Shown here: positions 41,067 through 53,116 of the stretch, piece after piece
Numbering within the stretch: the first letter of the stretch is position 1
Layout: each line of letters opens with the position of its first letter
From: Candidatus Rokuibacteriota bacterium
Lineage (GTDB): Bacteria; Methylomirabilota; Methylomirabilia; Rokubacteriales; CSP1-6
NCBI GenBank assembly: GCA_016193045.1
Contig: JACPSW010000007.1
Coordinates: 1-64,000 of the forward strand
Direction of reading: 5' to 3'
Length of the DNA stretch: 64,000 nt
Position numbers and translations under genes: made by a program
The notes under the pieces: model-generated
Database searches by the model: none
Told to the model about the DNA's origin: nothing
The model's input: only the letters and a program-made list of their open reading frames with translations

Positions 41067-42713
41067 TCAGGCGCCCTCGGCGGCGCGCCCCTTGGCGGGG
41101 AAGAAGCCCGTGGGCCTCCACTGGAGGAACCAGATCACGAGCGCGAGAATGGCGACCTTGGCGTAGATGGCGGCCGCGGTCCCCCCGATGGATGGCTCCA
41201 GGATCTTGTTCGACAGCCCGATGCCGAACGAGGCGACGACGGCCCCGAGGAGCTTCCCGACCCCGCCCAGCACGACCACCATGAAGGCATCCACGATGTA
41301 GGTCTTCCCGACCTCGGGATCCACCGTGCCGATCAGGGCCAGCGCGCACCCCGCCACCCCCGCCAGCGCCGTCCCCAGGGCAAACGTCAGGGCATCGATC
41401 CTCCGGGTGGACACGCCCAGGCACGAGGCCATCCCCCGGTTCTGCATCACGGCCCGCACGCGGAGCCCCGCGTAGGATCGCTGGAGCAGGAGATAGAGCG
41501 CCGCCAGCGCGAGGAGGGACAGCCCCACGATGAAGATCCGGCTCCAGGGGAAGATCAGTCCCCGCATCACCTCTACGCCGCCCCGAAACCAGCTCGGGGA
41601 GTTCACGCTCGTCTGGTCGCCGAAGTAGAGCCGGGCCGATTGCTGGAAGATCATCCCGATCCCCCACGTGACGATGAGCGTCTCCAGGGGCCGGCCGTAG
41701 AGGAAGCGGATGATGCCGCTCTCGATGGCGAGCCCCACCACCCCCGCGACGAGGAACGAGAGCGGCAGGGCCACGAAGAAGAAATAGTCCTGGTGGGCGG
41801 TGAAGCGCGCGGCGAAGATCTCCTGCACCACGTAGGCCGTGTAGGATCCGAGCATGAGCATCTCGCCGTGCGCCATGTTGATGATCCCCATCAGGCCGAA
41901 GGTCACGGCGAGCCCGAGGCTCATGATCAGCAGGACGGCCCCGAGGCTCACGCCGTTGAAGAGATAGCCGGTCAGGTTGCGCCAGGTGAGGAACACTTCG
42001 ACGCGCCTGACGGCCGCCTGGGCGGCGCGCTTCACCTCCGCGTCCCCGTCCTGCGCCGCCACGACCCTGAGCTGAGCCAGGCCCGACTCGGACCACGCCT
42101 GGCCCAGGAACTGCGCCGCCCGCGCGCGCGCGGGCGCGTCCGGGGACGAGAGGCTCAACCGGTTCAGCGCTTCCTGCATGACGCCTCTGACCCGCCGGTC
42201 CGTCTCCCGATCCAGGGCCTTCGCGAGCACCGGGATCGCGGAGAGGTCCCGCGAGTTCCCGAGCTTGAAAGCCGCCGACTGGCGCGCCTCGCGCTCCGCG
42301 CCGAAGACCTCGAGACGGTCGAGGAGGTTCTGGACGAGGCCGAAGAGCCGCTCTTCCAGGGCGATCGCCTCTTGCCCCTCGGCGGGCGAGACCGGCTGCC
42401 CGCGGTCATCCACGATCGGCTGCCCCGCCAGATCTTTCAGGGTGCCGTCATCCGCCAGGACGGTGAGCCGCGCCTTCCACCGATAGAGGGCCCCGTCCTT
42501 GAGCGCCCGCAGGAGGATCCCCACGGACGGGTCGCTGATCTCCCGCAGGGCGAGGATCGCCGCTTCCTGCGTGACCGGGGCCTCCAGGCGCGCGGGCAGC
42601 GAGGACAGGTCCGGGATCCCGGGCCCGGGGGCGGAGCCCGCCGCCGCGGGCCCGGGGATCGCCGGCAGAACCAGCAGAGCGAGAGAGACTACGACTGCTT
42701 TTCCGAGAGCCAC
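41067..42713 (-). CDS. urtB: Urea ABC transporter permease UrtB
   Basis: The 548-residue protein starts at a GTG (42713) inside the urtA tail, a 25-base overlap. It has a signal-like segment and a periplasmic helical domain of about 230 residues, which is usual for UrtB. The LivH-like permease follows: NGVSLGAVLLIMSLGLAVTFGLMGIINMAHGEMLMLG and AVMQNRGMASCLGVSTRRIDALTFALG. The first helices plus HEAT-like repeats make it far longer than LivH. Confidence 0.92.
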   Translation of the reverse strand: MALGKAVVVSLALLVLPAIPGPAAAGSAPGPGIPDLSSLPARLEAPVTQEAAILALREISDPSVGILLRALKDGALYRWKARLTVLADDGTLKDLAGQPIVDDRGQPVSPAEGQEAIALEERLFGLVQNLLDRLEVFGAEREARQSAAFKLGNSRDLSAIPVLAKALDRETDRRVRGVMQEALNRLSLSSPDAPARARAAQFLGQAWSESGLAQLRVVAAQDGDAEVKRAAQAAVRRVEVFLTWRNLTGYLFNGVSLGAVLLIMSLGLAVTFGLMGIINMAHGEMLMLGSYTAYVVQEIFAARFTAHQDYFFFVALPLSFLVAGVVGLAIESGIIRFLYGRPLETLIVTWGIGMIFQQSARLYFGDQTSVNSPSWFRGGVEVMRGLIFPWSRIFIVGLSLLALAALYLLLQRSYAGLRVRAVMQNRGMASCLGVSTRRIDALTFALGTALAGVAGCALALIGTVDPEVGKTYIVDAFMVVVLGGVGKLLGAVVASFGIGLSNKILEPSIGGTAAAIYAKVAILALVIWFLQWRPTGFFPAKGRAAEGA

Positions 42714-43975
42714 ACGCGCTTTCCGCCGACCGTGTCGTAGGTGCCCTTGCCGCCCTTGCTCCAGTCGCAGCCGCGAGACGGGTACGTCACGGTGCTCCAG
42801 GGCTCCGGGCGCACCCAGCCCTTGGTCTTCCACGCCACCTCGAACTGGCCGTCCGCCCGGATCTTTCCGATATACACGGGCTTCCACGTGTGGTGGTTCT
42901 GCTCGTCCACCTTGTACTTGCCCACTGGGCTCGGGACGTCGAGCCCCTCGAGGGCCTTCAGCACCCGGTCCACGTCGGTGGACTCCGCCTTGGAGACGGC
43001 CTTGGCCCAGAGCTTGACGTGGAGGTACGCGTGCATCATGGGGTCGTCGGTGACGGCCTGCTTGTCCGGGATCCCCCGCTGCTTGGCCCACTCCTTGTAG
43101 GCCTTGACCCACTTGAGGTTCTCGGGGGTCTTGAGCGACATGAAGTAGTTCCAGGAGGCGAGGTGGCCGACGAGCGGCTTCACGTCCAGGGTCTGGAGCT
43201 CCACCTCGGCGAAGCTGAACGACATGGTGGGCGTCCGGTCGGCGGTCACCCCCTGGTTGGCGAGCTCCTTGAAGAACGGGACGTTGCTGTCGCCGTTGAT
43301 CGTGTTGATGACGGCCGCGTCGCCGGCGGCGCTGAAGCTCTTGATCTTCCCCACGACCGTCTGGTAGTCCTGGTGATGGAACGGGGTGTACTCCTCGGCG
43401 ATGGCCGACTCCGGCACCTTCTTCACCTTCGTGAGGTAGAACTTCCTCTTGCCTCCGCCCTCGGGACTCATCAGGTAGTCGATGGCGGGCGTGGCCTGCT
43501 GGTTGATCGTCGCCCCGGTGTAGATCACGTTCTTGGAGCACTCCTCGCCCTCGTACTGCACGGGGTAGAAGAGCAGGCCGTTGTTCTTCTCGAAGACCGG
43601 CAGGACCGACTTCCGGCTCACCGAGGTCCAGCAGCCGAAGACGGCGGCCACCTTGTCCTGAAGCAGTAGCTTCTTGGACTTCTCGGCGAACAGGTCCCAG
43701 TTGGAGGCCGGATCCTCCACCATGGGCGCCACCTTGCGCCCCAGCACGCCGCCGGCCTTGTTGATCTCGTCGATGGCCATCAGGACGATCTCCTTGATCG
43801 GCGCTTCGCTGATGGCCATGGTGCCGCTGAGCGAGTGCAGGATACCGACCTTGATGGGCCCCTTTTCCTGGGCCCGAAGGATCGCGGGAAAGGACAGTCC
43901 TCCCGCAATCCCGGCGCCCGCGATGCCGAGGGCCGAAGCCTTGAGGAAATCCCGACGGGTATGACCCTGCGTCAT
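42689..43975 (-). CDS. urtA: Urea-binding protein UrtA
   Basis: The 428-residue substrate-binding protein carries a Tat signal (TRRDFLKASALGIAGAG). The mature part matches UrtA: KVGILHSLSGTMAISEAPIKE, VFGCWTSVSRKSVLPVFEKNNGLLFYPVQYEGEECS, YTGATINQQATPAIDYL and a C-terminal KGTYDTVGGKRVWL. It binds urea outside the inner membrane. AAAGGAGCAG precedes the ATG at 43975. Confidence 0.94.
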   Translation of the reverse strand: MTQGHTRRDFLKASALGIAGAGIAGGLSFPAILRAQEKGPIKVGILHSLSGTMAISEAPIKEIVLMAIDEINKAGGVLGRKVAPMVEDPASNWDLFAEKSKKLLLQDKVAAVFGCWTSVSRKSVLPVFEKNNGLLFYPVQYEGEECSKNVIYTGATINQQATPAIDYLMSPEGGGKRKFYLTKVKKVPESAIAEEYTPFHHQDYQTVVGKIKSFSAAGDAAVINTINGDSNVPFFKELANQGVTADRTPTMSFSFAEVELQTLDVKPLVGHLASWNYFMSLKTPENLKWVKAYKEWAKQRGIPDKQAVTDDPMMHAYLHVKLWAKAVSKAESTDVDRVLKALEGLDVPSPVGKYKVDEQNHHTWKPVYIGKIRADGQFEVAWKTKGWVRPEPWSTVTYPSRGCDWSKGGKGTYDTVGGKRVWLSEKQS

Positions 43976-44039
43976 GTGCTGCTCCTTTCGACAAAAGGCG
44001 TTCTGGGCAAGAAGGAACGTTTTGGCCTCATCGCCCCTC

Positions 44040-44107
44040 CGCGCGCCCTTGCGCGATCGATCCACGGGTGAGTCGTTCGAGCCCGCCCTGACCGACTCCG
44101 CTGTCGG
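44040..44107 (-). promoter_or_regulatory. Candidate ANTAR-responsive leader of urtA (two hexaloop hairpins)
   Basis: Read on the minus strand, hairpin 1 is CCGAC-AGCGGA-GTCGG (44107-44092). Hairpin 2 is CGCGC-AAGGGC-GCGCG (44055-44040). Both have six-base loops with A at position 1 and G at position 4, as in RNA targets of ANTAR antiterminators. The linker of 36 bases is longer than usual. An AT-flanked stem (AACGTTC/GAACG, then CCTTTT) about 25 bases further down could be the terminator it controls. Confidence 0.45.
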
Positions 44108-44131
44108 CGGTGCGCTTTGTAGTGACCAGTT

Positions 44132-44147
44132 AGCAAGCCACGTGCCG
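44132..44147 (-). promoter_or_regulatory. Sigma-54 promoter of urtA
   Basis: On the minus strand CGGCACGTGGCTTGCT matches the -24/-12 consensus GGCACG-N4-TTGCW. Predicted transcription starts near 44120, giving a leader of about 145 bases before the urtA ATG. Confidence 0.75.
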
Positions 44148-44281
44148 TTGAACGGGAGGAGGGAATGGTTCGATTCCGTAGAGAATTCAAGGGATTGCCC
44201 GGCGCGTCTATCCGGGATGAAACGGCGACGGCTGCCTGCTTCTTGGGCAAGCGCGCCGGGCTGCTAACGAATGCGGCAGGG

Positions 44282-44899
44282 CTACCGCGGGGCCGACTGC
44301 TCGCGGCGGGGATGCGTTCCTTCGAGGCGTTCGACCAGCAGGAGCGCCCGCGCGACCTCGACCATCGGCCTGCGGCTGTCCATGGCGGTCTTCTGGATCT
44401 TGCGGAAGGCCTCCGCCTCGCTCAGTCCGTGTCGGCTCATCAGGAGCCCCTTGGCGCGCTCGACCAGCTTGCGGGACTCCATGGCCTTCTTGAGATCCTC
44501 ATTCTCCCGCCTGATGGCGTCCAGCTCGCGGAACCGACCCGCGGCCAGCTCCATGGCCGGCTCGAGCTCTTCGGGGCGGAGGGGCTTGACCAGAAACGCC
44601 ATGATGCCCGCGTCACGGGCCCGCCGGACCACCCCCGCGTCCGTCCGGCTGGTCAGGAGCACGATCGGGCACGGCACCCGATCCATCACCGCCCGCGCGG
44701 CCTCGACGCCGTCGCCGTCGCGCAGGCCGACGGCCAGAATCAGGACGTCGGGGCGGGAGCGCTCCGCCAGTTCCAGGGCCTCGCGGGTCGACCCTCCGGC
44801 GCCGACGATCACTCCCCCGAGGGCGGTGACTGCCTCCGCCACCGCGACCCTGGACGGGGCATGGTCATCGACGAGGAGAACGCGCCAGTGCGGCTTCAC
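44282..44899 (-). CDS. ANTAR-domain regulator (NasT/AmiR type) with degenerate receiver
   Basis: The 205-residue protein has a receiver-like domain (1-120), a coiled linker, and a C-terminal ANTAR RNA-binding domain (KAMESRKLVERAKGLLMSRHGLSEAEAFRKIQKTAMDSRRPMVEVARALL). The receiver keeps the acidic pair (VDDH) and Lys (LVKP), but the phospho-acceptor site reads LILAVGLRDGDG, with Ala56 where Asp belongs. It probably does not use normal phosphorylation. Its place upstream of urtA suggests antitermination control of urea uptake. Confidence 0.88.
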   Translation of the reverse strand: MKPHWRVLLVDDHAPSRVAVAEAVTALGGVIVGAGGSTREALELAERSRPDVLILAVGLRDGDGVEAARAVMDRVPCPIVLLTSRTDAGVVRRARDAGIMAFLVKPLRPEELEPAMELAAGRFRELDAIRRENEDLKKAMESRKLVERAKGLLMSRHGLSEAEAFRKIQKTAMDSRRPMVEVARALLLVERLEGTHPRREQSAPR

Positions 44900-49163: not shown

Positions 49164-49592
<429 letters not shown>

Positions 49593-49668
49593 TCACCAGG
49601 GGGGATGGGGCGACCGCCTGCCTACGGATTGGGCAGGCCCCCAACGCCTGCCGCCTGCTTGGGCAGAG

Positions 49669-50285: not shown

Positions 50286-51643
<1,358 letters not shown>

Positions 51644-51647
<4 letters not shown>

Positions 51648-53116
51648 GGCTGCCTCACCGGCAGGAGCACCCGCACGCGGGTCCCCTGCCCGAGCCGGCT
51701 GTCGATCTGGATCTGCCCGCCGTGGAGGTCCGCGACGGACCTGGCGATGGCCATGCCCAGACCGGTGCCGTGCGGTTTGGTGGTGAAGAAGAGGTCGAAG
51801 GCTCGCGAGAGTGTCTCGTCGGACATTCCGCACCCGGTATCCTCGATCGTCACCTGGATCTCCTCGCTCTGATGGGTGACCGCCACGGTCAGCGTCCCCT
51901 CGTCGCCCATGGCATCCAGGCCGTTCAGCAGGAGGTTCATGAAGACCTTTCTGAGCTCCCGGGGATCCAGCAGCGCGTCCGGTACGTCGGCCGCGTACTG
52001 CCGCTCGACGCGGATCCGCCTCCCCGCCAGGCGATCCTGGGCGAGGGAGAGGCAGTCGTCGAGGAGCTGGGCCACCTTGACCGGCTCGCGTTTCAATTCG
52101 GAGGGCCGGCCGAAGGCCGTGATCTCGGTGACGAGGTCGGAGAGGTGGTCGATGGCCCGCCCGATCTTCTGGGCCAGCTCGCCGAGCTCGGGATCCTGGA
52201 CGGTCCCGAGCCGCTTTTCCAGATGGCGGGCGTAGAGCTTCAGCCCGCCGAGGGGATTCTTCAGCTCGTGGGCGACCTGGGCGGCCATCCGTCCCAAGGC
52301 GGCCAGGGCTCCGCTTCGCAGCTGGGAGAGTTCGTGAGCGTTCTTGAGCGCCACCGCGGCCTGGAAGGAGAAGAGGGCCAGGAGCTCGAGGTCCTCCGGC
52401 GTGGGAGACACCCGCTCGGGGCATTCGACGACGAGGGCTCCCATTGGTCCCCCGCGGACCACGAGGGGGGCGGCGAGCGCGACGCGCCCGTCCGTCCCCG
52501 TGAGCATCGTGGGCACTCCCTTCTCCACCGCCGCCTGCGCGGCAGCCTGAAGGGGCTCCCACGCCTTGGGCTGCGTCCCCGCGCTGGCCATGGGGATGAG
52601 CTGGTCCCGCTCGAGCAGGAAGACGACCGAGCGCTCGGCTTCGGTCGCCTCCACCGTGGCCTGGGCCACGGCATCCAGGATCCGCTCCATCACGCCGGAC
52701 GACGCGAGCGTCTCCCCCACCACCTTGAGCCGGCCGCGGTCGCGGGCCCAGCGGCGCTCCGACAGGGCCCGGCCCACCCGGGTCCGCAGCTCCTCGGGGT
52801 TGAAGGGCTTGGTGAGATAGTCGAAGGCCCCCCGCTGGATCGCCGCCACCGCCTCCTCGATGGAGCCGTGGGCCGCCATGATGAGCACCGGCAGCCCCGG
52901 CAGCCGCTCGCGGGCCGCCTCCATCAGGGCGATCCCGTCCATGCGCTCCATGCGGAGGTCGAAGAGCGCAAGGTCGAATCCTCCTCCGTCCAGCGCCGCC
53001 AGCGCCTCCCGGGAGCCACCCACGGCCGTCACCTGGAGCCCAAGGGCCTCGAGCCGCCTCCCTAGCACCTCGCGGATTTTCGCGTCGTCATCGACAACGA
53101 GTACACGCCCCTTCAC
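51644..53116 (-). CDS. Receiver-GAF-histidine kinase (NtrB-like partner)
   Basis: The 490-residue soluble kinase has an N-terminal receiver (phospho-Asp in LALFDLRMERMDG, LTKPFNPEEL), a GAF domain (about 145-270), HisKA with the phospho-His in QVAHELKNPLGGLKLYARHLE, and HATPase with DTGCGMS and GTGLGMAIARSVADLHGG. No membrane helices are present, so it senses a cytoplasmic signal. It is translationally coupled to the NtrC-type regulator. The GAF domain replaces the PAS domain of classical NtrB. Confidence 0.92.

Follow-up and report, generated by a model that had tools for sequence, protein, structure and literature searches.

In the 64,000-nucleotide stretch of DNA from a Candidatus Rokuibacteriota soil bacterium analysed here (hereafter the window), the urea-transporter gene urtA is preceded by what appears, with good support, to be an ANTAR-type two-hairpin target lying behind a sigma-54 promoter. 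This element is taken to be the 5' leader of the urtA operon mRNA, and we think it quite probable that it works in four steps. The first would be initiation by the sigma-54 RNA polymerase together with an NtrC-type activator at an upstream palindrome, with the presumed outcome that the operon is transcribed under nitrogen limitation. Two hairpins, P1 and P2, whose six-base loops have A at position 1 and G at position 4 (A1/G4), would then serve as target for the ANTAR protein of the adjacent gene. This protein would probably be gated by a protein or ligand partner and not by phosphorylation. Finally, its binding would alter expression after initiation. In the relatives, the hairpins cannot form together with a predicted helix in which the ribosome-binding site (RBS) is hidden or enclosed (in a single genome, the competitor is an intrinsic terminator instead), so that binding most likely permits expression, and would do so more often by freeing the RBS than by antitermination.

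The window carries on its minus strand, in this order, glnK, amtB, glnA, a gene for a BBP2-type porin, the ANTAR gene, urtA and more urea-transporter genes, and the named relatives in the family of this genome are Candidatus Rokubacteria. The urtA product scores 492.3 bits against TIGR03407, whose cut-off is 492.75, and a PDB search with it returned the urea-binding proteins 7s6f and 7s6e. The ANTAR gene (PF03861, E 8e-24) does lie directly upstream of urtA, as an earlier reading from the sequence only had stated, and the two genes adjoin in most family members having urtA. Among the best 80 ANTAR loci of GTDB genomes, considered with 3 kb flanks, urtA was found in four, all of them from Rokubacteria. 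In another genus of the same class (g28; L011, L016, L018 and L032), the ANTAR orthologue lies 3' of amtB and urtA was not found. In one relative (L068 in G010), the leader is kept behind glnA and no ANTAR orthologue was found in a genome that is 94% complete; the gene may just be absent from the assembly.

Features of the urtA leader and its surroundings, with positions in the window
Feature	Position	Strand	Basis
Sigma-54 promoter of urtA (predicted), GGCACG-N4-TTGCT	44132..44146	-	sequence; kept in orthologous leaders; rpoN present
NtrC-like sigma-54 activator, candidate enhancer-binding protein	50289..51656	-	PF00158, PF00072, PF02954
17-bp palindrome TGCCCA-AGAAG-CAGGCA (minus-strand reading), candidate enhancer (upstream activator site)	44233..44249	.	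one mismatch to TGCCYA-N5-TRGGCA
Hairpin P1, GCCGAC-AGCGGA-GUCGGU, loop AGCGGA (A1, G4)	44091..44108	-	sequence; shuffles; orthologue covariation
Hairpin P2, UCGCGC-AAGGGC-GCGCGG, loop AAGGGC (A1, G4)	44039..44056	-	sequence; shuffles; kept in G002
Linker of 36 nt separating the 5-bp cores of the two hairpins	44056..44091	-	long form also in relatives
ANTAR regulator, pseudo-receiver and ANTAR domain	44282..44899	-	PF00072, PF03861
urtA, urea ABC transporter substrate-binding protein, Tat signal	42689..43975	-	TIGR03407, E 7e-148; TIGR01409
Shine-Dalgarno AAAGGAG of urtA	43982..43988	-	sequence

The predicted sigma-54 promoter of urtA is strongly supported. Its elements on the minus strand are GGCACG (44146-44141), a four-nucleotide spacer and TTGCT (44136-44132), with the GG-N10-GC of the -24/-12 elements present, and the near-perfect site announced by the sequence-only reading has indeed a single mismatch to TGGCACG-N4-TTGCW. 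Only two sites in the 64 kb come within one mismatch of this motif, one before urtA and one before glnK, and the site is kept in the orthologous urtA leaders. A palindrome, TGCCYA-N5-TRGGCA, was spotted by eye in the urtA upstream regions and tested afterwards; allowing two mismatches, it is present in 35 of the 36 regions upstream of urtA sigma-54 sites, the window included. Its centre and the -24 element are mostly 61-63, 73-75, 84 or 93-95 bp apart (103 in one case), distances that step by about one helical turn. The genome of the window contains rpoN, and the NtrC-like activator of the window matches the NCBIfam ntrC model below the cut-off of that model. The sigma-54 reading is thus supported by the conserved, phased upstream palindrome and by the presence of rpoN and of this activator. 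The enterobacterial NtrC site TGCACC-N5-GGTGCA was also tried; its count in the window was not above chance, and TGCCYA-N5-TRGGCA was used instead. The second sigma-54 site, before glnK (49529-49544), has two such palindromes upstream, a perfect one (49619-49635) and a weaker one (49649-49665), and these elements probably belong to the regulon of the same activator.

Between a predicted start around 44121 and the urtA ATG at 43975, the leader would measure about 146 nt, close to the 145 or so bases anticipated earlier. The two A1/G4 hairpins, which had likewise been pointed out, each consist of five Watson-Crick pairs and one G-U pair, and both are C-G-closed hexaloops. Among 2000 dinucleotide shuffles, none yielded a pair of C-G-closed A1/G4 hexaloop hairpins with 5 bp or more each, and 2% yielded one or more of them. 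The folding energy of the whole leader is unremarkable (z -0.63) and an Rfam search with the window region and four relatives returned nothing credible, so the evidence is one of motif and conservation, and not one of stability.

This conservation is extensive, since about 40 relatives have such a urtA leader. Their ANTAR-urtA intergenic regions mostly present a sigma-54 site, P1, P2, the Shine-Dalgarno (SD) and the ATG, in that order, and a P1-like hairpin is found in nearly all orthologous leaders. A short-linker A1/G4 pair with at least nine base pairs in total is present in 13 of the 24 leaders of the first set, against 0-2% in single-leader shuffles. Covariation among the leaders of relatives, a check set out beforehand, was found: in a 17-sequence alignment, 86% of the cells are paired, while slid partners reach 49% at most, and both sides have changed in seven pairs (0 of 500 shuffles), the loop conservation of these leaders being partly by construction as they were chosen by motif. 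A covariance model (R1) built from the 17 leaders gave the urtA leader as its top genome-wide match in ten genomes outside the training set (G060, G061, G063, G064, G065, G066, G067, G069, G070 and G080), which belong to the same family and hence share ancestry with that set. R1 overlooks long-linker, single-hairpin and some atypical leaders, and it gives no match to the window leader at E up to 10. As for further ANTAR targets in the genomes of the relatives, five weaker R1 matches were inspected; none adjoins a recognisable nitrogen gene, some lie inside reading frames, and they look like chance matches. In the leaders of genus groups g5, g8 and g14 (e.g. L136 and L141), P1 and P2 are C-G-closed hexaloops over a recurrent pyrimidine-pyrimidine mismatch.

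The linker between the two hairpins of the window leader is unusual. Its length is 36 nt here, 37 nt in the congener G002 and roughly 30-33 nt in G004 and in the genomes of g19, against 2-9 nt in most other relatives, so that the linker noted at first sight as unusual, and perhaps as a mark of a variant target, does mark a clade variant. The genus of the window has this long form in common with two sister genera, and the long-linker leaders other than that of the window are those of G002, G004, G020, G071, G073 and G074. In the eut leaders, the linker is 5-12 nt long and induction is drastically reduced at 3 or 14 nt (PMC3369931). Antitermination by EutV is impaired in vivo when the linker is lengthened to 14 nt (PMC3369931) and abolished in vitro when it is 20 nt longer (PMC8934654), and the 36 nt of the window exceed the lengths that abolish it. 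The long linker could then reflect the loss of the canonical pair, that is, a target which has degenerated in the genus of the window and of which nothing but P1, or a single hexaloop at any one time, is still recognised. The absence of an R1 match in the window would fit with this, as would the urtA leaders of two relatives, which have a single hexaloop hairpin (L127 in G076, L132 in G077), and the fact that one hexaloop is the minimal EutV target and is enough for binding (PMC8934654). We consider such a degeneration rather unlikely, however, because G002 keeps both hairpins (its P2 counterpart is GCGC-AAGGGU-GCGC) and because a second hexaloop hairpin, with A or G at position 1 and G4, follows P1 by 30-37 nt in three genera and shows compensatory changes there. 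In an alignment of six long-linker sequences, in which the hairpins were joined without the linker, 91.7% of the cells are paired, against at most 50% for slid partners, and compensatory pairs are found; the P2 loop of g19 has G at position 1 instead of A. The long-linker leaders allow the claimed need of ANTAR proteins for hexaloops at close spacing to be tested.

What ANTAR binding would do to expression is best approached through the relatives. Opening of the RBS with P1 and P2 locked showed no general effect, and general sequestration of the SD, as judged by opening energy, was not significant (p 0.46). Inspection of the leaders then suggested that the loop and 3' arm of P1 complement the SD-AUG region, and native P1-RBS duplexes are stronger than those formed with the RBS regions of other genera (permutation p about 0.003), a result that is post hoc, coming after the negative broader test. 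As controls, the 24-nt segments flanking P1 upstream and downstream gave p 0.64 and 0.83, the signal is restricted to segments over P1, the reversed string gave p 0.58, and the test weakens to p 0.12 without g19 and g7. In whole-leader ensembles, the native sequences form 4.12 P1-RBS pairs per genus, whereas permuted RBS regions give 1.56 +/- 0.47 (0 of 20000). Nine genus groups show this pairing and eight do not, the latter including the genus of the window and g3, g5, g8, g9, g17 and g19. In the nine genera, locking P1 makes the opening of the RBS 1.1-8.3 kcal/mol cheaper in all but two genomes, and positions 5-6 of the P1 loop show compensatory changes with the SD-AUG spacer, these being two loop positions.

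P2 seems to be involved elsewhere. In g5, g8 and G033, its 3' arm is predicted to pair with the urtA codons CGUCGCG(A/G)C, in a helix of -16.1 kcal/mol, and in G009 and G070, which are related genomes, a U-to-C change in P2 goes together with an A-to-G change in the codons (p 0.03); the evidence for this pairing is modest. In G004, the ACGGGUC of P2 is predicted to pair with a GACCCGU beside the start codon. The helix competing with the hairpins would thus be P1/SD-AUG in nine genera, P2/urtA codons in g5, g8 and g14, and P2/SD-AUG spacer in G004, all three pairings being predictions made after viewing the data. The P1-RBS and P2-codon helices probably act as read-outs at the level of translation, beneath a single conserved ANTAR target. 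A bolder proposal, plausible to us though short of probable, is that the hexaloop hairpins are direct RBS switches, the loop and 3' arm hiding the RBS and ANTAR binding turning translation on, and that the read-out was repeatedly replaced within one family (P1-RBS, P2-RBS, P2-codons, P2-terminator).

Binding could have the opposite effect, the ANTAR protein sitting just upstream of the SD and blocking the ribosome, as has been reported for mycobacteria. In many relatives, the end of P2 and the ATG are 30-40 nt apart. The actinobacterial ANTAR RNAs are also mostly devoid of terminators, translation being proposed as the controlled step; many overlap the RBS, the RBS or start codon often lying within the motif, and in mycobacteria binding represses translation (PMC8164766). 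In the rokubacterial leaders, however, the SD lies outside the hairpins, and P2 of the window ends 64 nt before the ATG. Unlike in the actinobacterial RNAs, the hairpin and the RBS-hiding helix are alternatives in the relatives, and since this predicted helix competes with P1 in nine genera, activation on binding is predicted. Repression is therefore an unlikely outcome in our view.

Classical antitermination, in which ANTAR binding to P1 and P2 prevents a terminator overlapping P2, as for EutV and NasR, seems a shade less likely again. The mechanism is known for the family (PMC3369931), and the minimum-energy fold of the window pairs the AAGGGCG of P2 with a CGCCUUU near the SD. It also fits the anatomy of one relative (L005 in G018, about 1071-1180), which has P1, P2, an intrinsic terminator overlapping P2 with a U-rich tail, and a third A1/G4 hairpin, GCGC-AACGGC-GCGC, that aligns to P2 of the window. 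This relative is the only one with an intrinsic terminator among 42 urtA upstream regions scanned, by a scan that could overlook terminators without U tracts in GC-rich DNA; the other 41, the window among them, have none, and the 42 include a distant urtA paralogue without a leader (G076b). In particular, no terminator overlapping P2 was found in the window. Moreover, the distance from P2 to the SD is only about 20-30 nt in many relatives, and a longer linker abolishes antitermination by EutV (PMC8934654). The sequence-only reading had proposed that urea uptake is controlled at both initiation and antitermination; the first part is supported, with a conserved promoter, the palindrome, rpoN and an activator, and the second is not, for want of a terminator in 41 of the 42 regions. 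Finally, that the hairpins are chance products of GC-rich DNA is most improbable, for the rate of single hairpins in shuffles and the ordinary energy of the leader would allow it, but the pair in none of 2000 shuffles, the covarying conservation in some 40 genomes and the leaders found at urtA outside the training set speak against it.

The permissive two-hairpin leader proposed here has counterparts in known systems. The dual-hexaloop ANTAR targets of the eut, nasF and amiE leaders likewise have two small hairpins with A1/G4 six-base loops before a nitrogen gene, with a cognate ANTAR gene present as here, and urea transporters were already among the predicted ANTAR targets (PMC3369931). The window differs from them in its 36-nt linker and in having no overlapping terminator, and its relatives in having a competing helix made with the RBS or with early codons. 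The nirBD leader of Pseudomonas (sigma-54/NtrC and NasS-NasT; PMC12830290, PMC3795266) combines the same sigma-54 initiation with an ANTAR-bound leader in nitrogen assimilation, but it concerns nitrate and not urea, and the window has neither an adjacent NasS gene nor a terminator. Two-level control is thus not new, as it is known in nirBD (PMC12830290); the novelty lies in the lineage, in the form with a long linker and in the evidence for read-outs at the RBS level, which vary from one clade to another. ANTAR RNA control thereby gains a further, phylogenetically supported case in the urea-uptake operon of uncultured Rokubacteria, where it is coupled to a sigma-54 promoter whose upstream palindrome is defined. 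The relatives offer a natural series of the same ANTAR hairpins over different read-outs, which makes the shift of an RNA-binding regulator from antitermination to translation control testable.

The regulator itself keeps most of the RNA-contact residues of EutV and departs from it in its receiver. The EutV RNA-contact residues R142, K143, K147, E160, Y164, M172 and R175 were used for the comparison, and their counterparts in the window are R143, K144, R148, E161, F165, M173 and R176, two of them being similar residues; N173 and R177 of EutV are Asp and Pro in the window regulator. The phospho-accepting Asp of EutV-type response regulators (Asp54 in EutV) aligns with Ala56, and all the urtA-linked ANTAR orthologues aligned have Ala at this position. 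As the regulator is without this Asp, gating by a protein partner is likely, by analogy with AmiR-AmiC and NasT-NasS; AmiR and NasT are gated by relatives of solute-binding proteins (PMC3795266). AmiR is a homologue of the window ANTAR protein (1qo0_D, E 1.4e-7) and AmiC one of UrtA (1pea, E 2e-35), but AmiC acts with AmiR inside the cell, whereas UrtA carries a Tat export signal. The genome encodes a second ANTAR regulator (L002; G000:C34:124442-124939), in which the phospho-accepting Asp is kept.
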